Source: an uncultured Pelagibacteraceae bacterium (lineage in GTDB: Bacteria; Pseudomonadota; Alphaproteobacteria; Pelagibacterales; Pelagibacteraceae). From it: 64,000 nt of DNA. Both the position numbers and the translations under genes were made by a program. Positions 43,285 to 59,729 of this stretch are shown one piece after another. The stretch covers positions 124,001 to 188,000 of the forward strand of contig CACHEF010000002.1 of assembly GCA_902578775.1 (NCBI GenBank). The letters are read 5' to 3'. The notes beneath the pieces are model-generated. The model was not told where the DNA came from and made no database searches. It was given only the letters and a program-made list of their open reading frames with translations. Position 1 is the first letter of the stretch; each line of letters opens with the position of its first letter.

Positions 43285-43293
43285 TAACGAAAT

Positions 43294-44640
43294 TTAATTT
43301 TTCTTAGTTTTTGCGTAATTAGTTATTCCTGTTCGTAATTTTTCAATAATTTCATCAATATGTTTTTTTTCACAGATAAACATTGGTGCTATAATTAAGC
43401 AATCACCAGTAGCTTTGAAATTTACTCCTGCATTGTAACAATGTTTGAAAGTAGCTAAACCTGCCTTACCTGGTCTTCCATCAGTTTTAATATCTATACC
43501 ACCCATCATTCCATAACCTCTTATGTTATCAACAACATCAATATCTTTAAGAGAAAATAGACCTTCTTGGAAATAAGGACCAAGTTCTTTTGCTCTGTTA
43601 AAAATATCTTCTTTTTCAAAAATATCTTGAACTGCTAATGCTGCTGCTACTGAAACCGGAATACCAGAGTAAGTATATCCATGAAATAATTCTATTGCAC
43701 CTTTTGGAGAATTATCCATAACAGCATCATAAATTTCCTCTTTACAGGCAACTACACCAAATGGAACGATTCCATTAGTTGTTGCTTTTGCCATTGTCAT
43801 TATATCTGGTGTTACACCAAACTCTTGAGCTCCAAAAGCTGAACCAGTTCTTCCCCAACCAGTAATAACTTCATCAAAAATTAAAAGTATTTTATGTTTG
43901 TCACATAATTCTCTTAGTCTTTGCAAATATCCAACTGGTGGTACTAGAGTTCCTGTTGAACCTGCAATAGGTTCTACAATACATGCTGCAATATTTTCAG
44001 ATCCAAAATTAGTACAAATTCTCTCTAAGTCATTAGCAATCTCAGCTCCTGTTTCGGGTTGACCTGAAATATATTTATGTTCATCTAGATGCGTATGTCT
44101 CATATGAACTACACCTGGCATCAATACACTTGCATAAGCTTTAACATTATTAATCATACCACCTACTGACGTTGCTCCAATATTCATGCCATGGTAAGCA
44201 CGTTCTCTTCCAACAAATCTAAATCTTTGTCCTTCACCTCTTGCTTTATGATAGGCAATACTAATTTTAATTGCTGTCTCTACTGCCGTAGATCCACATA
44301 TTGTATAAAAAATTTTATTTAAGTTTCCTGGTGTATGTTTTGAAATTCTTGTTGCTAATTCAAATGAACCACCAAAACCTTGTTGAAATGGCTGACAATA
44401 ATCAAGAGTGTTTAATTGATTTGTTATTGCCTCTATAATCTCTTTTCTTCCATGTCCTAATGGATTACAGAATAATCCTGAGCTGGCATCAATTTGTGTT
44501 TTGCCATGATGATTTTTTAAATAAACACCTTTTGCCTCAACAATTAATTTTGGATTTTCTTTAAAATCCTTATTAGATGTAAATGGCATCCAATGTTCAT
44601 TAAGTGAATTAGGTACTGATGTTCTTTTTTCTGAGCTCAT
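43294..44640 (-). CDS. Class III omega-amino acid:pyruvate aminotransferase (taurine- or beta-alanine-type)
   Basis: 448 aa PLP enzyme. SLNEHWMPFTSNKDFKENP is the taurine/beta-alanine:pyruvate aminotransferase start; GSTAVETAIK binds PLP phosphate, FRFVGRERAYHG stacks the ring, LLIFDEVITGWGRTG holds the PLP aspartate and the Schiff-base lysine lies in MTMAKATTNG. It faces the tauABC operon across a 180-base divergent region and is followed by ald. The taurine-pyruvate aminotransferase role (giving sulfoacetaldehyde and alanine) is inferred from context; beta-alanine:pyruvate is the main alternative. Confidence 0.88.
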   Translation of the reverse strand: MSSEKRTSVPNSLNEHWMPFTSNKDFKENPKLIVEAKGVYLKNHHGKTQIDASSGLFCNPLGHGRKEIIEAITNQLNTLDYCQPFQQGFGGSFELATRISKHTPGNLNKIFYTICGSTAVETAIKISIAYHKARGEGQRFRFVGRERAYHGMNIGATSVGGMINNVKAYASVLMPGVVHMRHTHLDEHKYISGQPETGAEIANDLERICTNFGSENIAACIVEPIAGSTGTLVPPVGYLQRLRELCDKHKILLIFDEVITGWGRTGSAFGAQEFGVTPDIMTMAKATTNGIVPFGVVACKEEIYDAVMDNSPKGAIELFHGYTYSGIPVSVAAALAVQDIFEKEDIFNRAKELGPYFQEGLFSLKDIDVVDNIRGYGMMGGIDIKTDGRPGKAGLATFKHCYNAGVNFKATGDCLIIAPMFICEKKHIDEIIEKLRTGITNYAKTKKN

Positions 44641-44722
44641 AAAAAATTATTTATTTTTAAAATTAAAATCTAAAATCTCTTTAGACTAAAAATAATACAT
44701 TAACTACAACATTATTGACACA

Positions 44723-44739
44723 ACTATAGATTGTATAGT
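44723..44739. promoter_or_regulatory. Candidate operator between aminotransferase and tauA
   Basis: Perfect inverted repeat ACTATA-GATTG-TATAGT in the divergent intergenic region, immediately downstream of a TTGACA (44715-44720). The two units it separates are the taurine uptake genes and the probable taurine catabolic operon, so a shared regulator binding here would make sense. No known consensus matched. Confidence 0.4.
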
Positions 44740-44820
44740 CTGCTTTTTTTGTTTTACTTCGGTGGAAAATTCAAATTAAATACGAGCAATTTATATATAA
44801 ATAACAAACGGAGAGATTAA

Positions 44821-45762
44821 ATGAAAAAAATAGTTAGTTTTCTTTTAGGATGTTTCGTGGCTCTTAACTTAACTGTTAGCGCAGCTAATTCTGCTGCTAA
44901 TGAAGTTAGAGTTGCTTACTTTCTAGAATGGCCAAGTCCAAATCTAGAAGACATGATTAAAAAGAATTATGCAAAAGCTTTAGGTGTCCCAGTTAAATGG
45001 ACAAACTTCACTAATGGTGGAGCAATGACTGATGCTATGTTAGCGGGAGATATTGATATTTCTTACTCTCAAGGATTAGTTCCATTTATTAATGCTGTAA
45101 AATCTAAAGCACCAATTAAATTAGTTGATGTTGCTATGGAGTACGGAATGGGAGGAACAACTTGTGTTACTTCTAATGCTTCTGGAATTACAAAAGCAAA
45201 TGGTTCTGAACTAGAAGGTAAAAAAGTTGCTGTTCCACTTGGAACAATGGCTGAGTACGTTTTTGATGAAAGTATGAAAGTAATCGGAGCTGACAGAAAT
45301 AAAATGGATATCATTCAAATGGACCCTGAAGAAGGTGCTGCTGCATTAGTAAGCGGTGATGTTGTAATGGCATGTTTATTTGGTGGTAATTCAATTAAAG
45401 CTGCTCTTGCAGTTGGAACAAAAGTATTAACCGTTCAAGAAGCTAGAGATGCGGGTATCTTGGGTATAGATATTACTTCAGTAACTACAAAGTTCATGAA
45501 AGAAAACCCAGGAATGCTAAGAACTTTTGTAGAAGTTACTCATGAAGCTAATGCAAGATATCATGCGGGTAAACATGATGTAAATGCATTATCTAAAGCT
45601 TCTGAAATGAAAGTTGCAGACTTGAAAGAAACTTTAGCTGGAATGAAATTTTTAACTCCAGAAGAAACTAAAGAGTCAATGGAGAGCGGAAATCTTCATA
45701 AATTCCTAGAGGGTATGGGTACACCTAGAGGAAATGTGGATACAAGTTTCTTACCTTTATAA
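44821..45762 (+). CDS. tauA: Taurine ABC transporter substrate-binding protein
   Basis: 313 aa, signal peptide MKKIVSFLLGCFVALNLTVSA. The mature protein shows the TauA/SsuA-type opening (RVAYFLEWPSPNLEDMI), GGAMTDAMLAGDIDISYSQG, EGKKVAVPLGTMAEYVFDE and EGAAALVSGDVVMACLFGG, which shape the sulfonate/amine pocket. A strong GGAGAG Shine-Dalgarno precedes the ATG. Followed by a terminator-like hairpin before tauB, so the binding protein is probably made in excess. Confidence 0.9.
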   Translation: MKKIVSFLLGCFVALNLTVSAANSAANEVRVAYFLEWPSPNLEDMIKKNYAKALGVPVKWTNFTNGGAMTDAMLAGDIDISYSQGLVPFINAVKSKAPIKLVDVAMEYGMGGTTCVTSNASGITKANGSELEGKKVAVPLGTMAEYVFDESMKVIGADRNKMDIIQMDPEEGAAALVSGDVVMACLFGGNSIKAALAVGTKVLTVQEARDAGILGIDITSVTTKFMKENPGMLRTFVEVTHEANARYHAGKHDVNALSKASEMKVADLKETLAGMKFLTPEETKESMESGNLHKFLEGMGTPRGNVDTSFLPL

Positions 45763-45785
45763 AATAAAGGTAAACTAGATTTAAG

Positions 45786-45822
45786 TAGGCGCCAATTTAA
45801 TAAAATTGGTGCCTATTTTTTT
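45786..45822 (+). terminator. Attenuating intrinsic terminator between tauA and tauB
   Basis: A 13-bp stem (45786-45798 with 45803-45815, reading TAGGCGCCAATTT and its near-perfect complement, one G-U pair) with the four-base loop AATA, then seven Ts. It is the strongest terminator in the window and sits inside the tauABC operon, 28 bases before the tauB start. Confidence 0.85.
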
Positions 45823-45850
45823 AAAAGAAATTCAATTATAAAATTATTTT

Positions 45851-46648
45851 ATGAGTGATTTAGTTTCTCAAAATCTAAATATGATTTTTAAAACTCCAAA
45901 AGGAGAAACTGTTCATGCATTAAAAGACTTAAATTTCACACTAAAAAAGGGAGAGCTATTAACAGTTCTAGGACCTTCGGGATGTGGAAAAACTACTTTG
46001 TTAAACATAACCGCGGGATTTATCAGACCAACTTCTGGAAGCATCACTTTAAATAATAATGAAATTGATGGACCAGGTGTTGAAAGAGGTATGGTTTTTC
46101 AACAAGGTGCTTTATTTGAGTGGTTAACAGTGGCAGAAAATGTGAATTTTGGATTAAGAATGAAAAAAAAAGATCCAGAAGAAACTCAAAGAAAAGTTGA
46201 TGAATGGTTAGAAATAGTTGGATTAAAAGGTTTTGGAAATACTCCAACTTATCAGTTATCTGGTGGTATGCAGCAAAGAGTTGCTCTTGCAAGATGTCTT
46301 ATAAATGATCCAGATCTAATTTTAATGGATGAACCGTTAGGAGCTCTTGATGCATTAACAAGAGAAAAAATGCAGTCTTTAGTTTTAAAAATTTGGAAAG
46401 AAACGGGAAAAACAATTATTTTGATCACTCACTCTGTTGAGGAAGCTTTGTTACTTGGTGAAAGGTTATATGTAATGGCTCCTAGACCAGGCCGAATACA
46501 TAAAGAATACAATCTTCCTTTTGCTTCAATGGGGCTCAAAGAAGATTTAAGAGAAATAAAAAAAAACAAAGATTTTTCTGCTAAACGAGAAGAAATATTA
46601 GAAATGATATGGAATATGGAGGAGGAAATTATGGGGAAAGAAATCTAA
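45851..46648 (+). CDS. tauB: Taurine ABC transporter ATP-binding protein
   Basis: 265 aa. Walker A GPSGCGKTTLL near residue 42, Q-loop MVFQQGALFEWLTV, signature LSGGMQQRVALARCL, Walker B LILMDEPLGALDALT, and H-loop ITHSVEEALLL. This is the nitrate/sulfonate/taurine subfamily. The stop is adjacent to the tauC start with no gap. Confidence 0.93.
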   Translation: MSDLVSQNLNMIFKTPKGETVHALKDLNFTLKKGELLTVLGPSGCGKTTLLNITAGFIRPTSGSITLNNNEIDGPGVERGMVFQQGALFEWLTVAENVNFGLRMKKKDPEETQRKVDEWLEIVGLKGFGNTPTYQLSGGMQQRVALARCLINDPDLILMDEPLGALDALTREKMQSLVLKIWKETGKTIILITHSVEEALLLGERLYVMAPRPGRIHKEYNLPFASMGLKEDLREIKKNKDFSAKREEILEMIWNMEEEIMGKEI

Positions 46649-48574
46649 ATGCTTACCCAGATAGTAACTTTCTTGATATTATTTTCTATTATCGGATGCA
46701 TTCTTTACGGAAGAAGATTAATTAAAACAGAAAAAGTTGATGCCGTTTTTGGTAACCCTGAAAGAGCGTTAGGTGGTACACACTGGGTAATTGTTGGAAG
46801 TAGTTTTATTCTTTTAATATGGCTTTATTATTCATGGGATATTGCTAAAGGATTTTATCCTCAATCTGCTAATGAACTTTGCCAAGTGGGTAAAGTTAAT
46901 GACTCTCTGCTTGGGCTAAAATATCAATTTCCTATTGATGAAAGAGAATTAAAAAGTACTTCACAAATTAAAAAAGAAAATAAAAATCTAAAGTTAATTT
47001 CAGTAGAGATACAGAACTCTGATAAGCTTAATGATCAACAAAAAATGGTACTTGATAGATTTATTGATAAAACCAATCAATTAATTCCATTATTAACTAA
47101 CGAAGATTTGCTTGAGAATGCAACTAAACAAAAAATAATCAATTTAACAGGTAAAATTAATCTTTTAACTGAAAATTTTCAAAAACCAGATTATCCATTA
47201 GAGACTGAACAAGAACTAAACGAAAGACTAAGAGCTGTTGAGGAGGAAGGTGGTTGGGGTATTACAAAAGTAAATGCTGGATCAGGATCTATAGAAAATA
47301 CATTAGAAGTTCCTCTAATCCCAGCAACTAATAGAGGTTTAAAATTTCATGCAGCAGCTCAGGAATTAAATTTAATAAGTGATGAATTTTTTAAATTACG
47401 AAACCATAATCCACAATTTAAAAACAAGATAAAAGAAATAAAAGATCAAATTAAAGCTTACAGAAAAGATTTAGATGATAATGAGGAAGTTGCATCTGAA
47501 TATGCAAAGAATATTTTAAAGATTGCTAGAAGAATAGAATTTGCAAGTATATATCCACCCGATGCATTAGATAAAATGCAGAGTGCAATTGTTAAATTTG
47601 ATAATGCACAACTCAAGGCTCAAGGTGGGTTAAGGTTCATAGATATTTTTTTATTTCCTGCAGGAACAATTGTTGCCAGTGGATCAAATTGCTCAGAACA
47701 AGGCTCAGGTAGGTGGCTTCCTAAACCATCTGATACTTTTAATAAATTTGTCTTAATGTCAAAACCAAGTGTTGGATATAAAGATGTTCCTCTTTTATGG
47801 ATAAAAATGGTTGATGTCAGTAATGTAGTTGGTTTTATTATACCTGATTGGATAGCTGACATTTTGCCAGGTGAATATCCTGTTCATAATAAAGATGGAA
47901 TAGTAAAACAAAATTTTAAAGGTACAGTGCTTAAAATTGCTACAGGTGATTTTAGACTATTAAAAGTACCTGTTCCTCATGGACATATATGGGACTCATT
48001 TTTAAGAGTCTTCTTAGGCTTAGTTTTTGGAATACTTATAGGTGTTCCGTTAGGATTATTTATGGGGTTAAATAGATTTGCAAAAGGTTTTTTTGATCCA
48101 CTTATTGAGTTATACCGACCAGTTCCTCCATTGGCTTGGGCGCCACTAATTATTTCTGTTCTTGGAATTGATAACACTGGTAAAGTTTTCTTATTATTTA
48201 TGGTCTCTCTTTCAATAATGATAATATCTGCTAGAGCTGGTGCTTCAGGTACACAACTTTCAAAAATTCATGCAGCTCATTCATTAGGTGCTTCTAAAAA
48301 ACAAATACTCAGATATGTAATTTTTCCTAATTCTTTACCAGAAATCCTTACAGGTATAAGAGTAGCTGTAGGTATGTGTTGGGGAACTTTAGTAGCAGCA
48401 GAATTTTTAGCTGGAACAACTGGTATTGGGTTTGTAGAAAATGTTGCAAAAAAATATTTTCAATATGAAGTAATTTGGATCACGATTTTTATCATGGGGA
48501 TGCTTGGTTTGTTATTTGATATAACTTTAAGAAAACTTATAGATAAATACATTCCATGGCGTGGAAAAGGTTAG
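46649..48574 (+). CDS. tauC: Taurine ABC transporter permease with long N-terminal extension
   Basis: 641 aa, about 250-270 being usual for TauC. The last 200 residues are the permease: WDSFLRVFLGLVFGILIGVPLG, RPVPPLAWAPLIISVLG, EAA loop AAHSLGASKKQILRYVIFP and the C-terminal AEFLAGTTGIGFVEN. Before it lie two TM segments (residues about 3-20 and 47-68) and roughly 370 residues of soluble sequence, including helical, Glu/Lys-rich stretches and a PLIPATNRGLKFHAAAQ block, which I cannot assign to a domain. By topology this region should be extracytoplasmic. No frameshift or internal stop: it is one open frame. Confidence 0.9.
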   Translation: MLTQIVTFLILFSIIGCILYGRRLIKTEKVDAVFGNPERALGGTHWVIVGSSFILLIWLYYSWDIAKGFYPQSANELCQVGKVNDSLLGLKYQFPIDERELKSTSQIKKENKNLKLISVEIQNSDKLNDQQKMVLDRFIDKTNQLIPLLTNEDLLENATKQKIINLTGKINLLTENFQKPDYPLETEQELNERLRAVEEEGGWGITKVNAGSGSIENTLEVPLIPATNRGLKFHAAAQELNLISDEFFKLRNHNPQFKNKIKEIKDQIKAYRKDLDDNEEVASEYAKNILKIARRIEFASIYPPDALDKMQSAIVKFDNAQLKAQGGLRFIDIFLFPAGTIVASGSNCSEQGSGRWLPKPSDTFNKFVLMSKPSVGYKDVPLLWIKMVDVSNVVGFIIPDWIADILPGEYPVHNKDGIVKQNFKGTVLKIATGDFRLLKVPVPHGHIWDSFLRVFLGLVFGILIGVPLGLFMGLNRFAKGFFDPLIELYRPVPPLAWAPLIISVLGIDNTGKVFLLFMVSLSIMIISARAGASGTQLSKIHAAHSLGASKKQILRYVIFPNSLPEILTGIRVAVGMCWGTLVAAEFLAGTTGIGFVENVAKKYFQYEVIWITIFIMGMLGLLFDITLRKLIDKYIPWRGKG

Positions 48575-50041: not shown

Positions 50042-51829
50042 ATGAAACTTTCTGATTATACACTTAAATTTCTCCAGAAGAAAAAAGTTAAAGATGTTTT
50101 TTTAATTAATGGCGGAGCGATTTCTTTCATGATAGATGCGTTTTCTAGAAATAAAAAAATTAATTATATTTCTGTAGCTCATGAACAAAGTGCAGCAATG
50201 ATGGCTGATGCATATTCAAGAATGGGCCCAAATTTTTCTTGCACAATGGTAACTTCTGGGCCTGGCGCAACAAATTTAATCACAGGAATTGCTTGTTCTT
50301 ATTTTGACTCAATTCCTGCTTTGCATATCTGCGGTCAAGTAAACACATTTGAGCAAAAAGATGCATCGACTAGTACAAAAAAAGTTAGACAGATAGGATT
50401 TCAAGAAACTGAAATAGTGGAAATTGCAAGACCAATTACAAAATATAGTTATAAATTAAAAAGCCCTTATGAAATTAGATATGTTTTAGAAAAAGCATAT
50501 CATATTGCTACATCTGGCAGACCTGGCCCTGTATTAATTGATATTCCATTAAACTTTCAAAATTTTAATATTAATGAAAATAAACTTAAGTCTTTTAAAC
50601 CTAAAAAAGAAATAAGTAAAAACAATTATAAAAAAATTACAAAAAAAATTGAATTCCTTTTTAAAAATTCAAAGAGACCAGTTGTGGTTCTTGGTGGTGG
50701 TATAAAATATGCTAAGGCTGAAAATATATTAAACAAATTTTTGAAAAAAATAAAAATACCAATCTTAACGACTTGGAGTGGCACTGATTTAATTGATCAC
50801 AATAATAAAAATTATATTGGAAATATTGGTGTGTATGGCTCAAGATGTGCAAATTTTAGTGTGCAAAATTCTGATTTAGTTTTTTGCTTAGGTACTCGAC
50901 TAGACACAAGAACTACTGGAGGAGTGCCTAGAACTTTTGCAAGAAATGCTAAAAAAATAGTTGTAGATATTGACAAACATGAATTGAATAAAAAAAGAGG
51001 ATTAAAAATTGATTTAAAAATCAATTCAGATGTAAAGATTTTCCTAAATAATTTTGTCAAACATAGTAATAAATACTCTGCAAAAAATGAATGGTTTAAT
51101 AGAAATTTTTTATGGAAAGAAAAATTTCCAATAATTCAAAAAAAATATTTCAACGAAAAAAAATTTGTTAATCCATATGTGCTCATGGATAAACTATCAA
51201 AATTTACTAATAAAGATGAAATTATTATTGCTGACGATGGTGCTCATCTTAGCTGGGCCCTTCAAGCATATAAAGTTAAATATAATCAAAAACTATTCTC
51301 AGCATTTGGAAATTCACCAATGGGATATTCATTACCTGCCAGTATTGGTGCATCTATCGCAAAAAATAAAAAAAGAATTATATGCATCGATGGTGATGGA
51401 AGTATTCAAATCAACTTACAAGAACTTCACACAATAGATAAACTGAAGCTACCCATTAAAATCTTGATTCTTAATAATGATGGTTTTGGTATTATAAAAC
51501 AGTTTCAAGATCTTTATTTAGGTGGAAGATATGAAGCAGCTGGGAAAGGTGTAACGAATCCAGATTTTAAAAAAGTATCAGCAGCATTTAATATTAATTA
51601 TAATGTCATCAAGAATCACAAAAACTTAAACAAACTAGCTAAAATCATTAGATCAAAAAGGGCTGAAATTATTGAAATTAAGATAAAGCCCAACCAGAAA
51701 ATAATTCCAAAACTACAGTTTGGAAATCCAATTGAGGATCTATTTCCCCTACTGCCTAGAAAAGAATTTTTGTCCAATATGATTGTTCCAACAATTAAAA
51801 AAAAGTCTAAAATTATAGAGATAAACTAA
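50042..51829 (+). CDS. Thiamine-diphosphate-dependent enzyme (acetolactate-synthase-like)
   Basis: 595 aa, three-domain ThDP fold. Catalytic glutamate E48 in AHEQSAAMMADAYSR, FAD-domain-like central region (RPVVVLGGGIKYA), and the ThDP-Mg2+ motif G451-D452-G453 (CIDGDGSIQINLQEL) with NNDGFGI about 27 residues on. Found at the head of a CDP-deoxysugar cluster rather than with branched-chain amino acid genes, and no small regulatory subunit follows. In Yersinia a ThDP/FAD enzyme (YerE) adds a two-carbon acetyl branch to a CDP-keto-deoxysugar; an equivalent role here is plausible but unproven. Confidence 0.82.
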   Translation: MKLSDYTLKFLQKKKVKDVFLINGGAISFMIDAFSRNKKINYISVAHEQSAAMMADAYSRMGPNFSCTMVTSGPGATNLITGIACSYFDSIPALHICGQVNTFEQKDASTSTKKVRQIGFQETEIVEIARPITKYSYKLKSPYEIRYVLEKAYHIATSGRPGPVLIDIPLNFQNFNINENKLKSFKPKKEISKNNYKKITKKIEFLFKNSKRPVVVLGGGIKYAKAENILNKFLKKIKIPILTTWSGTDLIDHNNKNYIGNIGVYGSRCANFSVQNSDLVFCLGTRLDTRTTGGVPRTFARNAKKIVVDIDKHELNKKRGLKIDLKINSDVKIFLNNFVKHSNKYSAKNEWFNRNFLWKEKFPIIQKKYFNEKKFVNPYVLMDKLSKFTNKDEIIIADDGAHLSWALQAYKVKYNQKLFSAFGNSPMGYSLPASIGASIAKNKKRIICIDGDGSIQINLQELHTIDKLKLPIKILILNNDGFGIIKQFQDLYLGGRYEAAGKGVTNPDFKKVSAAFNINYNVIKNHKNLNKLAKIIRSKRAEIIEIKIKPNQKIIPKLQFGNPIEDLFPLLPRKEFLSNMIVPTIKKKSKIIEIN

Positions 51830-51889
51830 TATTTATATTTATTTTATTTTTTTCAAAATCATAATATATAAATTAATTTAAATATTTTA

Positions 51890-52831
51890 ATGAATAAATT
51901 TTTTCAAAAAGATTCAATAATTTTTAATAATCTTAGCAAAAAAAGATTTTTAATTACTGGTGGTTCTGGCATGCTAGCAAATTCATTTTTAAGGCAACTT
52001 AAGAAGTATACAAAAAATACAAAAATATATTGTTTAAGTAAAAATAAACTTGATGTATCAAAAAAAAATAGTTTTAATAAGTTTAAATTTGTTAAACCTG
52101 ATTATATTATTCATTGTGCAGCTTTAGTAAATGCAGATTTATGTGAAAAAAAAATTAAATTAGCAAAAAAAAATATTTACGACGGTACAAAAAATATTAT
52201 TGAATTTGCGAAAAAAAATAAATCTAAAATTTTTTATCCACAATCTTTTTTAATTTATAAAAATTCAAATAAAAAAGTTAGTGAAAATACATCTCCTAAA
52301 CCTTTGTCAGTTTATGGCAAATATAAACTCAAATCTGAACAACTCATACTTAAATCTTATAAAAATTCTTTAATAGTTAGAATGGGTGGTTTTTTTGGTG
52401 GTGAAAAAATAGATAATAATTTTGTTGGTAAAATCACTAGACATCTCTCTAGTCTTATTAAATCAGGTACAACAGAATTAAAAATTGGAGATAGAGTTTG
52501 GCAACCAACCTACACTGAAGATTTAGCATATAATTCATTAGTTTTGTTAGCTCATAAAAAATTTGGAGTGTATAATATGGCATCGCAAGGTTATTGTTCG
52601 TTTTTTCAACTGACTAAAAAAATTGTTGAATTTTTGAATTTATCAAAAAAAATTAAAATAAAAAAAATCAGCGCAAAAATACTCAATCAAAAAGAATTGG
52701 CAAAAAGACCGTCAAGATTAATAATGAATAATAAAAGATTAATTAGAGAAGGTCTTAATAGACAAAGAAATTGGAAATTAAGCTTAAAAGAATATTTATC
52801 AAATAAATATTTCAGAAACTTGTATAAATGA
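51890..52831 (+). CDS. SDR-family sugar-nucleotide reductase/epimerase (RmlD-like)
   Basis: 313 aa. FLITGGSGMLANSFLRQL is the NAD(P) loop, HCAALVNADLCEKKI the RmlD-type motif, and YGKYKLKSEQL the YxxxK. The catalytic threonine/serine region is replaced by FYPQSFLIYKNSN, so activity is probably reductase. Four-base overlap (ATGA-type) with the flavin oxidoreductase gene, implying joint expression. Likely to reduce a keto group in the CDP-sugar pathway; the actual substrate cannot be stated. Confidence 0.78.
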   Translation: MNKFFQKDSIIFNNLSKKRFLITGGSGMLANSFLRQLKKYTKNTKIYCLSKNKLDVSKKNSFNKFKFVKPDYIIHCAALVNADLCEKKIKLAKKNIYDGTKNIIEFAKKNKSKIFYPQSFLIYKNSNKKVSENTSPKPLSVYGKYKLKSEQLILKSYKNSLIVRMGGFFGGEKIDNNFVGKITRHLSSLIKSGTTELKIGDRVWQPTYTEDLAYNSLVLLAHKKFGVYNMASQGYCSFFQLTKKIVEFLNLSKKIKIKKISAKILNQKELAKRPSRLIMNNKRLIREGLNRQRNWKLSLKEYLSNKYFRNLYK

Positions 52832-53871
52832 AATCGAAATTATTTTCAAAGTTTAATATAAATGGAATTGGTGAATTAAAAAATCGGTTTGTTATGTCCG
52901 CGATGACAAGAGGATTTGCAGACAAAGAGCATTGTTCCACTAATGAAATTTCAAACTATTACGCTAAAAGAGCTAAAAATGGTGTGGGTCTGATTCTCAC
53001 TGAGGGTATTATTGTTCATCCCTCTGGCGATGGATATAATAATGTACCCCATTTGTGTAACGAAAAACAAATGCAGAGCTGGAAAAAAGTGTGTGATAAT
53101 GTTCATTCTTATAATACTAAAATTTATGCACAACTTTGGCATTGTGGAAGAATTTCACATGAGGATTATACTAAAGGACATGATGTTGTAAGTTCTACTA
53201 ACAATGCTGCGGGAGGTATAAATCGTCAAAATCAAAAACCTTATGGAAAACCGAGAGCTTTAGCTAAAAATGAAATGAATAAAATTTATGATATGTTTCA
53301 ATATTCAGCTGAATTATCTATTAAGGCTGGATTTGATGGTATTCAAATTCATATGGGACATGGATATTTAATCGATCAATTCTTAGATGCAAATGTTAAT
53401 AATCGTCAAGATGAATATGGGGGATCAATTGATAATAGAATAAGATTTTCATTAGAACTTTTAGAGTCATTAAAAAATAAAATAAACTTAGATCGAGTTT
53501 CAGTAAGAATATCACCATCAAGAATAATGAATGGCTTATATGAATGGCCAGACAAATATTCAATGTTAACAAAACTTTTAAAAGAGTTTGATTTAATTGG
53601 ATTAAGACAATTAGACATAAGTTGTGCTAATTCAAATTATTATGAGACTTCTGGAAAAATAATTAGAGAAATAAGACATTTATGGCCTCACATTTTGATT
53701 GGTGGTGCATCATTAACAAAAAAAGAGGCCTTAGAAGAAGTCAATAAAGGATACTTGGATATGGTAACTTGGGGTAGAGCATTTATTGCAAATCCTAATT
53801 TAGTAGATTTAATGTTAAAAGATTTGCCTTTAAAAAAATTTGACAATTCTATGAGAGGGTCACTAATTTAG
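52828..53871 (+). CDS. Old Yellow Enzyme-family NADH:flavin oxidoreductase
   Basis: 347 aa TIM-barrel flavoprotein. LKNRFVMSAMTRGFADKEHC is the FMN-binding start; NVHSYNTKIYAQLWHCGRIS follows, with active-site GFDGIQIHMGHGYLIDQFL and NRQDEYGGSIDNRIRF, and GASLTKKEALEEV near the end. OYE enzymes reduce activated C=C bonds. It is unusual among sugar genes, sitting between an RmlD-like reductase and the cytidylyltransferase; it might reduce an enone intermediate of deoxysugar synthesis. No C-terminal iron-sulfur extension is seen, so it is a single-domain OYE. Confidence 0.87.
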   Translation: MKSKLFSKFNINGIGELKNRFVMSAMTRGFADKEHCSTNEISNYYAKRAKNGVGLILTEGIIVHPSGDGYNNVPHLCNEKQMQSWKKVCDNVHSYNTKIYAQLWHCGRISHEDYTKGHDVVSSTNNAAGGINRQNQKPYGKPRALAKNEMNKIYDMFQYSAELSIKAGFDGIQIHMGHGYLIDQFLDANVNNRQDEYGGSIDNRIRFSLELLESLKNKINLDRVSVRISPSRIMNGLYEWPDKYSMLTKLLKEFDLIGLRQLDISCANSNYYETSGKIIREIRHLWPHILIGGASLTKKEALEEVNKGYLDMVTWGRAFIANPNLVDLMLKDLPLKKFDNSMRGSLI

Positions 53872-53875
53872 AATT

Positions 53876-54646
53876 ATGAAAGTATTTATTTTATGTGGGG
53901 GTTATGGCACAAGATTAGATCATGAGGGAACCTTAATAGCTAAACCAATGGTGCGTATTGGTAAAGATCCAATTTTAATGCACTTAATAAGGACTTATCA
54001 TGACCAAGGATTTAAAGAATTTGTATTTTGTTTAGGGCATAAATCAAAGACAATTATAGATTATTTTTTAATTGAAAATAAAAGATATACAAAAAAAATT
54101 AATTCCAAAAAAACCTACACAGAATTTTCTTTTAAATCAAAAAAACTAGAATTTAAAGGAAGCTTAATTTTTACTGGTTTAAAATCAGGAACCGGTGGGA
54201 GAATTAAAAAAGCCTATAATAAGTTAAAATTAAATGAAGATTTTTTAATGACATATGGTGATGGATTAGGAAATATTTCCATAAAAAAATTAATTAAATT
54301 TCATTATCGTAATAAATCTAAGGTAACATTGACTGCAGTAAGACCAAAACAAAGATACGGTGTTTTAAAAATAAATAAAAAAATAATTACAAACTTTAAT
54401 AATGAAAATCAAAAAGCTGATACATATGTAAATGGTGGTTTTTTTGTAATTGATAAATCGGCTATTAAAACTATTGCTAATGATAAGATATATTGGGAAC
54501 AACAACCGATGGTATTTTATACAAAGAAAAAACAATTATTTGCTTTTAAGCATGAAGGTTTTTGGAAAAGTCTTGACACTTTAAAAGATAAAAATGATTT
54601 TAATAATTTGTATAAAAATAAAAAAAAAATTCCATGGAAAATTTAA
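53876..54646 (+). CDS. rfbF: Glucose-1-phosphate cytidylyltransferase
   Basis: 256 aa. VFILCGGYGTRLDHEGTLIAKPMVRIGKDPI opening in pieces typical of RfbF (GGxGTRL...KPM), FVFCLGHKSKTIIDYF, GTGGRIKKAY and MTYGDGLGNISIKKL with catalytic aspartate, then GVLKI and VNGGFFVID with EQQPM...HEGFWKSLDTLKD as substrate and closing elements. It makes CDP-glucose for the overlapping rfbG. This pair defines a CDP-sugar pathway distinct from the dTDP pathway at 31 kb. Confidence 0.92.
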   Translation: MKVFILCGGYGTRLDHEGTLIAKPMVRIGKDPILMHLIRTYHDQGFKEFVFCLGHKSKTIIDYFLIENKRYTKKINSKKTYTEFSFKSKKLEFKGSLIFTGLKSGTGGRIKKAYNKLKLNEDFLMTYGDGLGNISIKKLIKFHYRNKSKVTLTAVRPKQRYGVLKINKKIITNFNNENQKADTYVNGGFFVIDKSAIKTIANDKIYWEQQPMVFYTKKKQLFAFKHEGFWKSLDTLKDKNDFNNLYKNKKKIPWKI

Positions 54647-55707
54647 GAAAATTTTGGAAAAAAAAAAAAGTTTTGATAACTGGTCATACTGGTTTTAAGG
54701 GATCTTGGCTAAGTATAATTTTAAATTTTCTGAATTCTAAAATATATGGTTATTCTTTAACCCCAAAAACAAATAGTTTATATATTAAATCAAAAATTAA
54801 AAATTGTTTTGCAGAGAGTGCTTATGGAGATATTAACGATTTAAATAAATTAAAAAAATTCATAAAAAGAATCAAACCTGAAATAATCTTTCACATGGCT
54901 GCTCAGCCATTAGTTTTGGACTCATACAAAGATCCTTTAAATACATTTTCAACAAACGTTTTAGGAACAGTTAATTTATTAGAAATAATAAAAAGCACTA
55001 ATTCAATTAAATCAGTCGTAATTATTACAACTGATAAAGTTTATAAAATCAATAATAAAAACAAGGCCTATTCTGAAACTGACGAACTTGGTGGTTATGA
55101 TCCGTATAGTTCATCTAAGGTTTGTGCCGAGATAGCTGTAAATAGTTATGTACAATCTTTTTTCAACAAAACAAAACTTAAAAATAAAGTTGCAACTGCG
55201 AGAGCCGGAAACGTAATCGGTGGTGGAGATTTTGCAAAAAATAGATTGGTTCCAGATATTTTAAATGCATTAAATAAAAAAAGAAAACTTGTTATCAGAA
55301 ATCCTAGTCAAATAAGACCTTGGCAACATGTCCTTGACCCTTTAATGGGATATTTGCTGTTAGCCGAAAAGCAATACAATGGAAAAATTAGGAGTTTAAA
55401 TAATTGTTGGAATTTTGGTCCCGACAAAAGTAATTTTAAAAAAGTAATTGAAATTGTTAAATATATTAAAAAAAATTCAAAATTAGAATATAGAATAAAA
55501 AAAAATAAAAATTATAAAGAAACAGATATTTTGAAATTAAATAGCTTTAAGACAAAAAAAATACTCGGATGGTTTACAAAATGGAGTATAAATGAGTCAT
55601 TAAATAGAACTATTGAGTGGAATAATTTAGTAATTAAAGGTAAATCTGCCAAAAATATTTGTGAAAATCAATTTCTTGAGCTTTTAAAGACAAAAAAAAT
55701 AAAGTAG
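54634..55707 (+). CDS. rfbG: CDP-glucose 4,6-dehydratase
   Basis: 357 aa extended SDR overlapping rfbF by 13 bases. ITGHTGFKGSWLSIIL (characteristic of RfbG), AAQPLVLDSYKDP, TTDKVYKI, YDPYSSSKVCAEIA with YxxxK-type pair, ARAGNVIGGGDFAKNRLVPD and IRPWQHVLDPLMGYLLLAE. It forms CDP-4-keto-6-deoxyglucose, the precursor of 3,6-dideoxyhexoses and branched octoses. Canonical length, all motifs intact apart from GGGDFA where GGGDWA is usual. Confidence 0.93.
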   Translation: MENLRKFWKKKKVLITGHTGFKGSWLSIILNFLNSKIYGYSLTPKTNSLYIKSKIKNCFAESAYGDINDLNKLKKFIKRIKPEIIFHMAAQPLVLDSYKDPLNTFSTNVLGTVNLLEIIKSTNSIKSVVIITTDKVYKINNKNKAYSETDELGGYDPYSSSKVCAEIAVNSYVQSFFNKTKLKNKVATARAGNVIGGGDFAKNRLVPDILNALNKKRKLVIRNPSQIRPWQHVLDPLMGYLLLAEKQYNGKIRSLNNCWNFGPDKSNFKKVIEIVKYIKKNSKLEYRIKKNKNYKETDILKLNSFKTKKILGWFTKWSINESLNRTIEWNNLVIKGKSAKNICENQFLELLKTKKIK

Positions 55708-55719
55708 ACAAAGTTATTT

Positions 55720-56922
55720 ATGAAAAACAAATTAAGTAAAATTTCATATGGTAAAAATGTATATAATTTTGAGGAGATAAACGCAGTTTTAAAAACTTTG
55801 AAAAACTCCACTCAAATGGGTGTATCTGTAAATAAGTTTGAGACAAGAATTGCAAAATTATTCAATAAGAGATTTGGGCTAATGGTTAATTCTGGATCTT
55901 CTGCACTAATCCTTGCCTTAAAAGTATTAAATCTAAAAAAAGATAGTGAAGTTATAATTCCTTGTTTAAATTTTGGTACAGCAATCTCCTCGATTGTACT
56001 TAATAATCTTAAACCTGTTTTTGTTGATTGTGAAGTAAATACCTTACAAATTGATATCAGTAAAATTGAAAAAAAAATTAATAAGAAAACAAAAGTATTA
56101 TTGATACCTAATTTGATTGGTAATATTCCAGATTGGAGAAAAATTAAAAAAATTGCGAATAAATATAAACTTTTTATCATTGAAGATTCCGCCGATACTT
56201 TGGGCGCTACTATCAAATCAAAACCAACAGGTAAATACAGTGATATATCAATAACAAGTTTTTATGGATCACATATAATCAGTTGTGCAGGAAATGGTGG
56301 AATGTTTTTAACAAATAATAAGAAATTTTTAGACCAAGCAAAAGTAATAAGAAGCTGGGGAAGAATGTCCACTTTAATAAAAGATTCTGAAAACATAAAA
56401 AAAAGACTTGGAATAAAACTTAAAGGAGTTAATTATGACCAGAAATTTGTTTTTTCAGAAATAGGCTATAATTTTGAACCATCTGAGATTGGTGCCTCTT
56501 TTGGATTAATCCAGCTTAAAAAATTCAAAAAATTTAATTCTATAAGAAACAGAAATTTTAAAATGCATGTAGATTTCTTCAAAAAATTCAAAAAATATTT
56601 TATCGTTCCACAAGTTTTAAAAGGTATTAAAACAAATTTTCTTGCTTATCCAATAATAATTAAAGATAATAACTACTTTGGTAGAAAGGAACTTCAAATT
56701 TATTTAGAAAAAAATAATATCCAAACTAGACCGATCTTTAGTGGAAATATCCTAAGACACCCTGCATTTTCTAATCTTGCCAATAAAAGAAACAAAATAA
56801 CATCTTTTAAAAATGCTGATTATATAATGAAACATGGAATTCTTATAGGTTGTCATCAAGGATTATCTACAAATAATATAGGCTATATCCACACAAAAAT
56901 TTTAAATTTTATTAATAAATAA
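55720..56922 (+). CDS. PLP-dependent sugar 3-dehydrase (RfbH/ColD-like DegT-fold enzyme)
   Basis: 400 aa, DegT/DnrJ/EryC1 fold. VNSGSSALILALKVL, D156 in FIIEDSADTLGA (PLP pyridine contact) and, at the position where aminotransferases have lysine, H185 in SFYGSHIISCAGNGGM. Histidine there marks PMP-dependent dehydratases such as RfbH and ColD, which remove the 3-hydroxyl. The Cys-rich loop that binds the [2Fe-2S] cluster in RfbH (E1) is absent: the region after WGRMSTLIKD has no cysteines. So it is more ColD-like, yet next to CDP-sugar genes. Confidence 0.8.
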   Translation: MKNKLSKISYGKNVYNFEEINAVLKTLKNSTQMGVSVNKFETRIAKLFNKRFGLMVNSGSSALILALKVLNLKKDSEVIIPCLNFGTAISSIVLNNLKPVFVDCEVNTLQIDISKIEKKINKKTKVLLIPNLIGNIPDWRKIKKIANKYKLFIIEDSADTLGATIKSKPTGKYSDISITSFYGSHIISCAGNGGMFLTNNKKFLDQAKVIRSWGRMSTLIKDSENIKKRLGIKLKGVNYDQKFVFSEIGYNFEPSEIGASFGLIQLKKFKKFNSIRNRNFKMHVDFFKKFKKYFIVPQVLKGIKTNFLAYPIIIKDNNYFGRKELQIYLEKNNIQTRPIFSGNILRHPAFSNLANKRNKITSFKNADYIMKHGILIGCHQGLSTNNIGYIHTKILNFINK

Positions 56923-56947
56923 TTTAGATAATATTTATTTAATAAAT

Positions 56948-57913
56948 ATGACTCAAAAAAGAAAATTATTAATACTAGGTGGAAGTGGATTTATTGGTAA
57001 ATCAATTGTTGAATGCATTAAACAAAGAAAATTATCAAATCATAAAATAAATGAATTAATTTCAATTTCTAGATCTGATACGTATCAGGATTTTAATACT
57101 AATAAAATTAAATTTAAATTTATAAAAAAAAATATACTAAAATTAAAAAAAATTCCTGAGGTTGATTTTATAATTTATTGTTTAAGATCTGATAATATCA
57201 AAATAAGTGAAAAATATTTTGGTCATTTTTTAAAGTTAATTAGAAAATATAAAAAAAAACCAAAAATTTTATTTACTAGCTCTGGTGCTGTTTATGGTAA
57301 CAGATTATATAAAAAATCAGATAAACAAGTGAAATTCAGTGAAAATGATATCATTGACAAAAAAAAAATTAATAAACTTAATAAAAAAAAAATTAAATAT
57401 GCTTTGGAGAAATTTCACATAGAAAAAAAATTTCGTAATCTTGGGAAAAAAAATTACAAAGTTTCAATTGCCAGATGTTTTAATTTTATTGGTAAAGAAA
57501 TGGCCTATAGTAATCAAGCAGTTGGGTCAATGATGAGAGATGTAATCAAAAATAAATCGATAATAAAACTCAATACAACAATGAATGTATATAGGGGATA
57601 CTTAAATGATATTGATATGGTTAATTGGCTATTTACAATAATGCATTATTCAAATTATAAATGTCCTGTCTTTAATGTAGGATCTAGTAAATCAATAAAT
57701 ATAAGAACATTGGCAAAATTAATAGCAAAAATATATAAAAAGAAGGTATTATTAAAAAAATTAAATAATAAAACGTTTGAATGTTATGTGCCATCAATTA
57801 ACAAGGCTAAAAGATTGCTTAAATTAAAAGATTCAATTAGTTTAAATAAATCAATTAATTTGATTAGGACTTACAAATATGAAAAAAATTTCTATAGTAA
57901 CACCAACATTTAA
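56948..57913 (+). CDS. NAD-dependent epimerase/dehydratase (SDR), putative 4-keto-sugar reductase
   Basis: 321 aa. ILGGSGFIGKSIVECI Rossmann loop, LFTSSGAVYGNRLYK with catalytic serine, IKYALEKFHIEKKF with a YxxxK pair, FNFIGKEMAYSNQAVGSMM and YLNDIDMVNWLF. The frame is intact but lysine runs are dense. Likely ends the CDP-deoxysugar pathway by reducing or epimerising the sugar. Overlaps the following GT2 gene by 35 bases. Confidence 0.78.
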   Translation: MTQKRKLLILGGSGFIGKSIVECIKQRKLSNHKINELISISRSDTYQDFNTNKIKFKFIKKNILKLKKIPEVDFIIYCLRSDNIKISEKYFGHFLKLIRKYKKKPKILFTSSGAVYGNRLYKKSDKQVKFSENDIIDKKKINKLNKKKIKYALEKFHIEKKFRNLGKKNYKVSIARCFNFIGKEMAYSNQAVGSMMRDVIKNKSIIKLNTTMNVYRGYLNDIDMVNWLFTIMHYSNYKCPVFNVGSSKSINIRTLAKLIAKIYKKKVLLKKLNNKTFECYVPSINKAKRLLKLKDSISLNKSINLIRTYKYEKNFYSNTNI

Positions 57914-58808
57914 CGAAGAAGAAAACATTGAGAGACTTTGTGAGGAAATACAATCAGTATTTAAAAATCTTAATTATGATTACGAACATATAGTTATTGA
58001 TAATAATTCAACTGACTCAACAATTACTAAATTAAGAGAATTAGCTAAAAATGATAAAAGATTAAAAGTTATAATTAATGCAAAAAATTATGGACATTTA
58101 AAATCGCCATATTACGGAATTTTACAGTCAAGTGGAGATGCTTGTATTCTTATGGTTTCTGACTTTCAAGAACCGATTGAACTTATTCCTCAATACATAA
58201 AAAAATGGGAACAAGGTTCTAAAATAATCCTTTGTCAAAAAAATAACTCAGAAGAAAATAAAATATTTTTTTCATTGAGGAAATTATTTTATAATTTTAT
58301 CAACAAAATTTCTGATACAAAATTAAATATTAATACATCTGGAACAGGGTTGTTTGATAAAGAAGCAATCAATAGATTGAGACAAATTAATGATCCATAC
58401 CCTTATTTCCGAGGTCTTGTCTCGGAATTAGGTTTTGAAATAGATATTATTGAATTTTATCAACCTTTGAGAAAACGTGGATCTACTAAGAATAATATTT
58501 TTACACTTTATGATTTGGCTATACTTGGAATAGTAAAACATTCTAGAGCTCCTCTTAGGTTTATGACATTATTAGGATTTATTTCTAGTTTAATTTGCTT
58601 AGTAGTAGCTTTTGTTTATTTTATTTTAAAAGTATTATTTTGGGACTCTTTCACTTTTGGATCAGCACCCACAATATTAGGCTTATTCACAATAAGTTCC
58701 ATTCAAATTATATTATTAGGATTATTGGGTGAATATATAGGAATTATTCTTTTACATCAAAGAAACATGCCACTCGTTGTAGAAAAAGAAAGAATTAATT
58801 TCGAATAA
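57879..58808 (+). CDS. Glycosyltransferase family 2, DPM1/ArnC/GtrB type
   Basis: 309 aa. SIVTPTFNEEENIERLCEEI, HIVIDNNSTDSTITKL, VIINAKNYGHLKSPYYGI (DXD-equivalent MVSDFQEPIELI follows) and RKRGSTKNNIFTLYDLAILG, then two C-terminal membrane helices (about residues 228-252 and 262-288). This layout is typical of enzymes charging undecaprenyl phosphate with a sugar for O-antigen or lipid modification. It lies at the end of the CDP-sugar block and overlaps the previous gene. Confidence 0.88.
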   Translation: MKKISIVTPTFNEEENIERLCEEIQSVFKNLNYDYEHIVIDNNSTDSTITKLRELAKNDKRLKVIINAKNYGHLKSPYYGILQSSGDACILMVSDFQEPIELIPQYIKKWEQGSKIILCQKNNSEENKIFFSLRKLFYNFINKISDTKLNINTSGTGLFDKEAINRLRQINDPYPYFRGLVSELGFEIDIIEFYQPLRKRGSTKNNIFTLYDLAILGIVKHSRAPLRFMTLLGFISSLICLVVAFVYFILKVLFWDSFTFGSAPTILGLFTISSIQIILLGLLGEYIGIILLHQRNMPLVVEKERINFE

Positions 58809-58832: not shown

Positions 58833-59729
58833 TTATTTATGTTTGTGTCTTGTTGATATTATATTCTTAATATACTCAACCAAACTCTTTTTACCAAAAT
58901 GTCTATAAACTTTGTTTGAAAGATTCATTTTTGTTAAAGCAGATGAATATCTTTCTCCAGGTCGTTTCTTTAAAAATTTAATTTTTGATTTAAACATTTT
59001 TGCTACTTCAAAAATTGAAAAACTTTTTTTATTTGATATAGAGTAATGTCTAGACATATTTTTTTTCCAAGCTAAATAACAAATTTCAACTGTGTCATCT
59101 ATATGTGTAAATCTTCTTGATTGACTTCCAGGTAATACTACAGGTAAAGGTTTGTCTTTTTTAAATGCTTCCTCAAAAATACCTATAACTGTCGCCATTT
59201 TTCCTTTACATATTTGACCTGGTCCATAAACATTATAAAAATAAATAACCTCATATTTAAAATTAAACCATTTTTTTAAATTTTCTAATAATTCTAAGTT
59301 TTTGGCTTTTGTAAATGCATATGGAGATAGATTTTTATCTGTTCCTCCATTACCGAGTGAGGCAGAAGTTGCTGAATAAATTAATTTTATTTTGTTAACT
59401 AAACAAAAATTAAAAACAGAATTAGTTCCTATGCTATTAGCATCAATGCATTTATTCATATTTACAAAACTTTGGTATATTCTTGCAAATTCACCAAAAT
59501 GAAATACTGAGTGAATTTTTTTAGGTTGTTTAATTATCGTACTTATATCTTTTGTTTCACCTTTAAAGTATTTTACTCTTTTATTCTTAATATGATTTTT
59601 TTTTGAACCAGATGAATAATTATCTAGACTAATTATATTAAATTTTGTTTTTTGAAGAAATAATCTAATCAAATTTGAACCAACAAAACCTGCACCACCA
59701 GTAATTAGTATACTTTTTTTACCACTCAT
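58833..59729 (-). CDS. NAD-dependent sugar epimerase (UDP-glucose 4-epimerase-like)
   Basis: 298 aa, convergent to the GT2. ILITGGAGFVGSNLIRLFL and LDNYSSGSKKNHIK, FHFGEFARIYQSFVN, SATSASLGNGG, YAFTKAKNLELLE (YxxxK) and FYNVYGPGQICKGKMATVIG. The Y-F-T-K version and the atypical FGEFARIYQS loop suggest a divergent branch (UDP-GlcNAc/GlcA type); reaction not certain. Part of the right edge of the glycan island. Confidence 0.8.
   Translation of the reverse strand: MSGKKSILITGGAGFVGSNLIRLFLQKTKFNIISLDNYSSGSKKNHIKNKRVKYFKGETKDISTIIKQPKKIHSVFHFGEFARIYQSFVNMNKCIDANSIGTNSVFNFCLVNKIKLIYSATSASLGNGGTDKNLSPYAFTKAKNLELLENLKKWFNFKYEVIYFYNVYGPGQICKGKMATVIGIFEEAFKKDKPLPVVLPGSQSRRFTHIDDTVEICYLAWKKNMSRHYSISNKKSFSIFEVAKMFKSKIKFLKKRPGERYSSALTKMNLSNKVYRHFGKKSLVEYIKNIISTRHKHK

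Follow-up and report, generated by a model that had tools for sequence, protein, structure and literature searches.

A Pelagibacteraceae gene cluster predicted to make a CDP-linked, C4-branched deoxysugar with a YerE-like carboligase and an Fe-S-free RfbH-like dehydrase

We analyzed a stretch of 64,000 nucleotides (the window; contig C2, positions 124001-188000) from the genome of an uncultured Pelagibacteraceae bacterium (1.13 Mb, 88.7% complete) and found a cluster of eight plus-strand genes (50042-58808) that very likely makes a cytidine diphosphate (CDP)-linked, C4-branched deoxysugar for a surface glycan; this assessment covers the core route and not the step assigned below to an ene-reductase. 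In order, the genes encode a YerE-like thiamine diphosphate (ThDP)-dependent enzyme, an RmlD-like short-chain dehydrogenase/reductase (SDR1), an Old Yellow Enzyme (OYE), an RfbF-like protein, RfbG, an RfbH-like protein, a second SDR (SDR2) and a GT2 glycosyltransferase. Neighboring genes are spaced by -35 to +60 bases, with overlaps of 4 bases (SDR1/OYE), 13 bases (RfbF/RfbG) and 35 bases (SDR2/GT2), and are predicted to be co-transcribed. The G+C content is 25.7% in the cluster and 28.2% in the window. An initial annotation of this DNA had placed rfbF, rfbG, a His-type 3-dehydrase, a ThDP enzyme, two SDRs and an OYE between 50042 and 57913; all of these genes lie where it put them, on one strand, but the run goes on through the GT2 gene to 58808.

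The ThDP enzyme (50042..51829) was characterized by PDB sequence matches, phylogeny, active-site residues and an AlphaFold model. Its best PDB matches were 5ahk (316.5 bits), JanthE (8rph; 293.7 bits) and then 1jsc, a yeast-type acetohydroxyacid synthase (AHAS, or acetolactate synthase; 264.6 bits). The 5ahk record is labeled acetolactate synthase II; we took it to be PpYerE because the Val of its GMVRGF segment becomes residue 479 after removal of a 20-residue N-terminal offset, which fits V479 of PpYerE (PMC12247030). The same paper gives the donor ranges of YerE-like enzymes and the known structures of PpYerE and JanthE. In a tree of 116 proteins (81 AHAS rows, 34 YerE-like rows), the ThDP enzyme, PpYerE, JanthE and 31 others fell on one side with an approximate likelihood-ratio (SH-aLRT) support of 98. 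IlvB of the same genome (L001), which is encoded elsewhere, grouped with SAR11 and other acetolactate synthases. A tree of 50 proteins, for which 30 YerE-like and 20 AHAS rows were taken from these 34 and 81 (L003 omitted), separated the two groups with support of 100/100, as did every one of 200 bootstrap trees; here PpYerE formed a long basal branch among the YerE-like proteins, and the window enzyme was neighbor to L005 of genome G103 (99/91). For the larger tree, matches shorter than 400 residues and sequences interrupted by an in-frame stop (a single one from each of L064, L065, L076, L098, L112 and L115) were left out, and both tree programs flagged long branches and compositional heterogeneity. 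The nearest named relative of the gene came from Candidatus Pelagibacterales (L053; 55%). The initial annotation had offered a tree of YerE against IlvB as the check on its proposal, with grouping among acetolactate synthases as the outcome that would speak against it; in both trees the enzyme sits with PpYerE and JanthE instead.

Residue comparisons gave a similar picture. At the AHAS positions M351, H352 and D376, in what we take to be Arabidopsis numbering, 75 of the 81 AHAS rows carried the M and 80 each the H and the D, and the corresponding residues were present in none of the 34 YerE-like rows. The window enzyme has V, Y and T there and F at the W574 position; it retains R373 (kept in 33/34 YerE-like rows) and R377, and its catalytic Glu and GDG motif are intact. 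The best match of its AlphaFold model (predicted local distance difference test, pLDDT, 76.7) was JanthE, followed by acetolactate synthases; 5ahk was absent among the best 50 Foldseek rows. The window enzyme thus shares with PpYerE its side of the tree, the catalytic Glu, the GDG motif and the lack of the three AHAS-type residues, differing from it in that PpYerE forms a long basal branch; it shares the same features with JanthE except the motif, which is CDG in JanthE, and the two are 28-30% identical in the fold alignment. We propose that the enzyme is a YerE-like carboligase, with a 2-oxo acid as its acyl donor and a CDP-sugar, at the C4 ketone, as its acceptor. On mobile elements, matches to it carried the label acetolactate synthase or none, at 28-36% identity, both among the best 40 of 1480 plasmid records and among the best 10 of 54 phage records.

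We then asked what surrounds YerE-like genes elsewhere, scanning named genomes with the ThDP enzyme and keeping the best 80 loci, 12 YerE-like and 68 others. Of the 12 YerE-like loci, 6 had a homologue of RfbF, 8 one of RfbG and 8 one of RfbH (at least 120 bits within the fetched stretch), and none of the 68 others had any of these (Fisher P-values 3e-6, 2e-8 and 2e-8, respectively); at 140 bits, RfbG was found at 7 of the 12. The median fetched stretch was 20.4 kb for the YerE-like loci versus 17.1 kb for the others. One locus absent from the trees (L064) was counted as YerE-like by resemblance and neighbors, and two on the AHAS side of the tree (L063, L122) were counted with the others. YerE-like genes therefore sit with CDP-sugar genes beyond chance, for example in Zoogloea, Sphingomonas, Verrucomicrobia, Bacteroidetes and another Pelagibacterales genome. 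Within the SAR11 family, at least 18 of 197 genomes, including that of the window, carry YerE-like genes placed by the tree. More distant YerE-like genes were seen in Candidatus Ryanbacteria, a bacterium of the candidate phyla radiation (CPR; L054, 48% identity), and in the archaeon Candidatus Pacearchaeota (L056, 41%). The result also bears on annotation. In PMC2217521 (Table 5), SAR11_0527 of HTCC1062, in hypervariable region 2 (HVR2), is listed as an acetolactate synthase of amino-acid metabolism beside nucleotide-sugar epimerases; this gene of the lipopolysaccharide hypervariable region may encode a YerE-like enzyme.

The acceptor would be supplied by three further enzymes of the cluster. 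The glucose-1-phosphate cytidylyltransferase (53876..54646) has TIGR02623 as its best family (240.1 bits; next family 64.9 bits) and is called RfbF-like because it does not reach the equivalog cut-off of 300.25. RfbG, the CDP-glucose 4,6-dehydratase (54634..55707), has TTDK and YSSSK motifs and scores 435.8 bits with TIGR02622, over the NCBIfam equivalog cut-off of 278.45. The third is an RfbH-like 3-dehydrase (55720..56922) dependent on pyridoxamine 5'-phosphate (PMP), with PRK15407 as its best family (285.7 bits, cut-off 423). Aligned with E1 (3bcx), the RfbH-like protein keeps the His that replaces Lys (H185) and has one extra residue in the loop after it; other residues stand at E1 C193, C251, C253 and C261, which we take to be the four ligands of its [2Fe-2S] cluster. 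Its AlphaFold model (pLDDT 90.3) also has E1 3bcx as its best PDB match. Among the SAR11 members of its clade, the His was present in 20/20 and the cysteine motif in 0/20 distinct sequences aligned, and dehydrase matches of at least 48% identity occurred in 27 of 197 SAR11-family genomes (one partial, one with a stop).

To place this iron-sulfur (Fe-S)-free dehydrase we used a tree of 93 RfbH-type proteins, in which Fe-S labels were assigned by a motif rule. The Fe-S-free proteins formed a clade of 30 rows (100/99; 19 SAR11 rows including the window's and 11 of the 56 viral-contig dehydrases in the tree), sister (99/93) to an E1 side of 56 rows. ColD lay on another, long branch, outside this clade, and five Lys-type aminotransferases formed a clade of their own. 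Non-viral matches below 95 bits were dropped, as were viral dehydrases below 150 bits, shorter than 300 residues, with stops or identical, which left 62 in the set used for the neighborhood counts and 56 in the tree; L154-L156, comprising the G177 dehydrase and two duplicates, were removed. With the Lys types as root, we infer that a single gain of the [2Fe-2S] cluster on the E1 side, plus a loss in L054, would be the simplest history. The dehydrase of L054, the CPR genome, falls on the E1 side with weak support and lacks three of the four Fe-S cysteines.

The window dehydrase thus resembles E1 in its His for Lys, its fold and its sister position, and differs in lacking the four cysteines and in the extra loop residue. 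The review PMC8987622 describes the catalytic His as common to E1, SpnQ and ColD and as a mark of 3-dehydratases, with four cysteines holding a [2Fe-2S] cluster in E1 and SpnQ and no cluster in ColD; E1 works by electron transfer, whereas in ColD the product is freed by hydrolysis and glutamate regenerates PMP. Hydrolytic release is plausible for the window enzyme because it too is His-type without an Fe-S cluster; it differs from ColD in its separate branch, and ColD, according to the same review, uses a guanosine diphosphate (GDP)-sugar. No FAD_binding_6 (E3-type) protein was found in the window's genome (88.7% complete; the search covered this one E3 domain). Elsewhere, a FAD_binding_6 match was found in 0 of 6 SAR11-family genomes with the Fe-S-free dehydrase (the window's included) versus 8 of 9 genomes with the Fe-S type. 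The lack of Fe-S cysteines together with that of a FAD_binding_6 protein makes a ColD-like hydrolytic route likely for the RfbH-like dehydrase. As an Fe-S-free counterpart of E1, the enzyme bears on the way in which the mechanisms of E1 and ColD came to differ.

A further feature of the cluster is the pair formed by SDR1 (51890..52831; YGKYK motif; PF04321, 137.3 bits; TIGR01214, 140 bits, under its cut-off of 224.05) and the overlapping OYE, a putative ene-reductase (52828..53871; PF00724, 234 bits). The OYE belongs to its family by the PF00724 match and by T27, H175, H178 and Y180, which include what we take to be the catalytic His/His and Tyr motif, and it is the sole PF00724 match in the genome. 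OYE matches occurred in 24 of 197 SAR11-family genomes including its own, the others at most 35% identical. A class-level search (385 genomes) recovered only the OYE itself at E 1e-58, and a phylum-level search (398 genomes) gave one close relative, in G727 (51%), the rest reaching at most 38%; among 203 genomes of the class of G727, G727 alone, itself part of the query model, exceeded 280 bits. That genome repeats the arrangement of the window, with a homologue of SDR1 (45%) placed first and overlapping that of the OYE (52%), and downstream lie an epimerase, a glycosyltransferase, RfbF (38%) and a sugar C-methyltransferase (PF08484). Among 40 OYE loci (39 places, G727 counted twice; flanks of about 1.5 kb), an SDR1 neighbor was found at the G727 place only. 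In two genomes, then, the SDR1-OYE pair accompanies CDP-3,6-dideoxysugar genes and a C-branching enzyme, which is the ThDP enzyme here and a methyltransferase in G727. Since the pair recurs in G727 near rfbF, rfbG, rfbH and the C-methyltransferase, the ene-reductase probably belongs to the sugar pathway. We also considered the OYE as a stand-in for the missing E3, an idea weakened by G727, where the pair lies about 12 kb from an RfbH of the Fe-S type in a genome with seven FAD_binding_6 matches. Two scans of viral contigs gave no OYE; on plasmids, OYE reached 39% at best (best 15 of 1328 records) and SDR1 24-30% (best 15 of 70 records).

In the pathway that we propose from these genes, RfbF would make CDP-glucose, RfbG would convert it to CDP-4-keto-6-deoxyglucose, and the Fe-S-free RfbH would remove the 3-hydroxyl by PMP chemistry, with ColD-like hydrolysis and regeneration of PMP by glutamate in place of the electron transfer of E1 and E3. 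A short 2-oxo acid, pyruvate being the likeliest, would be decarboxylated by the YerE-like enzyme, which would join its acyl unit to the C4 ketone and so produce a tertiary alcohol. The branch ketone would then be reduced by SDR2 (or SDR1), and GT2 would pass the sugar on. SDR2 (56948..57913), an extended SDR with a YALEK motif (PF01370, 45 bits), is the candidate ketoreductase of the branch; its homologues are 40% identical in cassette L174, described below, and 36-38% in the YerE-like cluster L051. SDR1 and OYE may form an extra reducing module, the most tentative part of the scheme. After C3 deoxygenation, the C2 hydroxyl, which is beta to the C4 ketone, could be eliminated to an enone, and OYE could reduce the enone to a 2,3,6-trideoxy sugar before branching; such elimination and enone reduction accord with general reactivity and known OYE activity. 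OYE would here be an ene-reductase with, apparently, a nucleotide sugar as its substrate, and the cluster as a whole predicts a rare branched sugar in a SAR11-type ocean bacterium.

It could be argued that the cluster makes yersiniose A or B by the known route, with the OYE a passenger and the dehydrase merely a divergent E1. The window shares with the yersiniose pathway, as we take it to run from PMC12247030 and general background, genes of the RfbF, RfbG and RfbH types, a YerE-like carboligase and SDR reductases, two of them here, and E1 is the best match of the dehydrase in both sequence and structure. However, the window dehydrase has other residues in place of the four Fe-S ligands of E1, their motif is absent throughout the SAR11 clade members aligned, no E3-type protein was found in the genome, and an extra OYE overlaps SDR1 in a pair that recurs in G727. 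Yersiniose itself is possible on this evidence, not favored, and we regard it as rather unlikely. The Fe-S-free dehydrase without E3 and the extra SDR1-OYE pair suggest that the final sugar is not simply yersiniose; the split transketolase of a homologous cassette is a third departure from that pathway. Of the initial annotation, YerE-type branching of a CDP-4-keto-3,6-dideoxysugar thus survives the tree, but it had not foreseen the Fe-S-free dehydrase, the failure to find an E3 or the SDR1-OYE pair. A little less doubtful is a longer or hydroxylated 2-oxo acid as donor, giving a longer-branched sugar: for ErwE, of erwiniose, pyruvate is not a donor and longer hydroxylated acids are preferred, and JanthE accepts donors from pyruvate up to 4-methyl-2-oxopentanoate (PMC12247030). 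Speaking weakly against this, the window segments LDTR/IKQFQ near the active site are closer to MDVR/VRGFQ of PpYerE than to LAIP/IKHTQ of JanthE.

Two other explanations concern the identity of single enzymes. The acceptor might be CDP-4-keto-6-deoxyglucose rather than a CDP-3,6-dideoxyhexose, the RfbH-like protein being an aminotransferase or isomerase. Its clade has no characterized member in the tree, and of eight SAR11 loci of the clade (L174-L181; typed by clustering with L178) four lie beside RmlA/RmlB-type and two beside CDP-type genes. We nevertheless find this quite improbable, given the His that marks 3-dehydratases according to PMC8987622, present in every SAR11 clade member aligned, and the separate clade of the Lys-type aminotransferases. 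Least credible of all, and extremely unlikely in our view, is a biosynthetic or catabolic acetolactate synthase sitting by chance in a sugar cluster. The leading NCBIfam matches of the ThDP enzyme are indeed acetolactate synthases, as are the fold matches listed after JanthE. Yet the enzyme scores under the AHAS cut-offs listed (TIGR00118, 437.3 versus 538.35 bits), the genome has its own IlvB elsewhere that groups with AHAS, and the sub-cut-off scores, the tree split and the three replaced residues lead us to reject an AHAS identity.

Besides these NCBIfam matches, several observations weigh against the branched CDP-sugar pathway as we read it. The ThDP tree was built without characterized YpYerE or ErwE sequences, and the AHAS residues do not all separate the groups, because R377 is kept in 11 of 34 YerE-like rows, the window enzyme included, and the W574 position, W in 72 of 81 AHAS rows, is also W in 7 of 34 YerE-like rows. 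Both the RfbF-like and the RfbH-like proteins score under their NCBIfam cut-offs. Genome G080 (60% complete), the sole exception of the nine above, has an Fe-S-type dehydrase without a FAD_binding_6 match, and since FAD_binding_6 is broad and the window's genome is 88.7% complete, the absence of E3 is suggestive only. The SDR1-OYE pair was found in just two genomes, and in G727 the genes for RfbG (42%) and RfbH (31%) are on the opposite strand, some 12-14 kb past OYE. Finally, at 12 SAR11-family YerE-like loci (L041-L052) read over 15-20 kb, RfbG reached 120 bits at merely three (L041, L042 and L051), so the acceptor of YerE-like enzymes may well vary among SAR11-family loci.

A SAR11 cassette in genome G177 (L174) contains a run of homologues of GT2 (62%), SDR2 (40%), RfbH (72%) and RfbG (50%). 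Between SDR2 and RfbH it carries a split transketolase, with an N-terminal half of 265 residues (PF00456) and a pyrimidine-domain half of 297 residues (PF02779). The 20 kb L174 stretch yielded neither a YerE-like nor an RfbF gene, and the 161 genomes listed with a match to the ThDP enzyme do not include G177. Split transketolases have been proposed to branch the keto sugars of miharamycin and amipurimycin (PMC12247030), and a survey cited there puts 13 putative ones all in Streptomycetes. L174 resembles these systems in its split pair and differs in lying outside the Streptomycetes. From this one locus we infer that YerE-like enzyme and split transketolase may be exchanged as carboligases. Among N-terminal-half matches in the SAR11 family, the best 50 listed were open frames of 188-321 residues, and most others (649-713 residues) were fused. 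The partner gene adjoined in all 30 loci read; an RfbH-like gene lay within about 1.5 kb in just 5 of the 30, so most other split transketolases occupy other settings. Split pairs, distinct from the fused transketolase, are widespread in the SAR11 family, and their N-terminal halves share 34-50% identity with the one in L174.

A broader reading, which we offer as speculative and consider unlikely, would join these elements into a modular system of ocean bacteria and of contigs labeled viral. A clade of Fe-S-free 3-dehydrases with ColD-like chemistry would act on nucleoside diphosphate-4-keto sugars with no electron-transfer partner, followed by interchangeable C4 carboligases (YerE-like or split transketolase) and, here, by an SDR-OYE module for 2-hydroxyl elimination and C=C reduction, yielding a branched 2,3,6-trideoxy sugar. 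If true, this would be a route of 2-deoxygenation without an EvaA-type 2,3-dehydratase. In a literature search we found no publication joining "old yellow enzyme" with "deoxysugar", and none joining Pelagibacter with CDP-glucose among the matches listed; nor, among matches that were mostly listed, did we find in print an Fe-S-free clade sister to E1, an SDR-OYE pair in a CDP-sugar cluster or a CDP-sugar cassette with a split transketolase.

YerE-like ThDP genes were also seen on IMG/VR contigs classed as viral, a classification taken as labeled. Among the best 80 of 201 stretches (L238-L317) they were 34-45% identical, and 63 of the 80 had an RfbH-like and 54 an RmlB-like match (at least 90 bits, within the stretch fetched).

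The last gene of the cluster, the GT2 glycosyltransferase (57879..58808; PF00535, 76.4 bits), is nearest to PgfS, with an NF047588 score of 177.1 bits under a cut-off of 500. A search of the window with Rfam gave a single tRNA but no rRNA, and we rejected the idea that it has rRNA borders of the type known from HVR2 in SAR11. Upstream of the cluster (42169-48574), translations suggest a taurine-type transporter-like set of substrate-binding protein, ABC ATPase and permease and, on the opposite strand, an aminotransferase and an alanine dehydrogenase. Right after the operon lies a minus-strand SDR (SDR3; 58833-59729), whose 78% identical homologue at L175 (G165) is near RmlA/RmlB-type genes and an Fe-S-free dehydrase.

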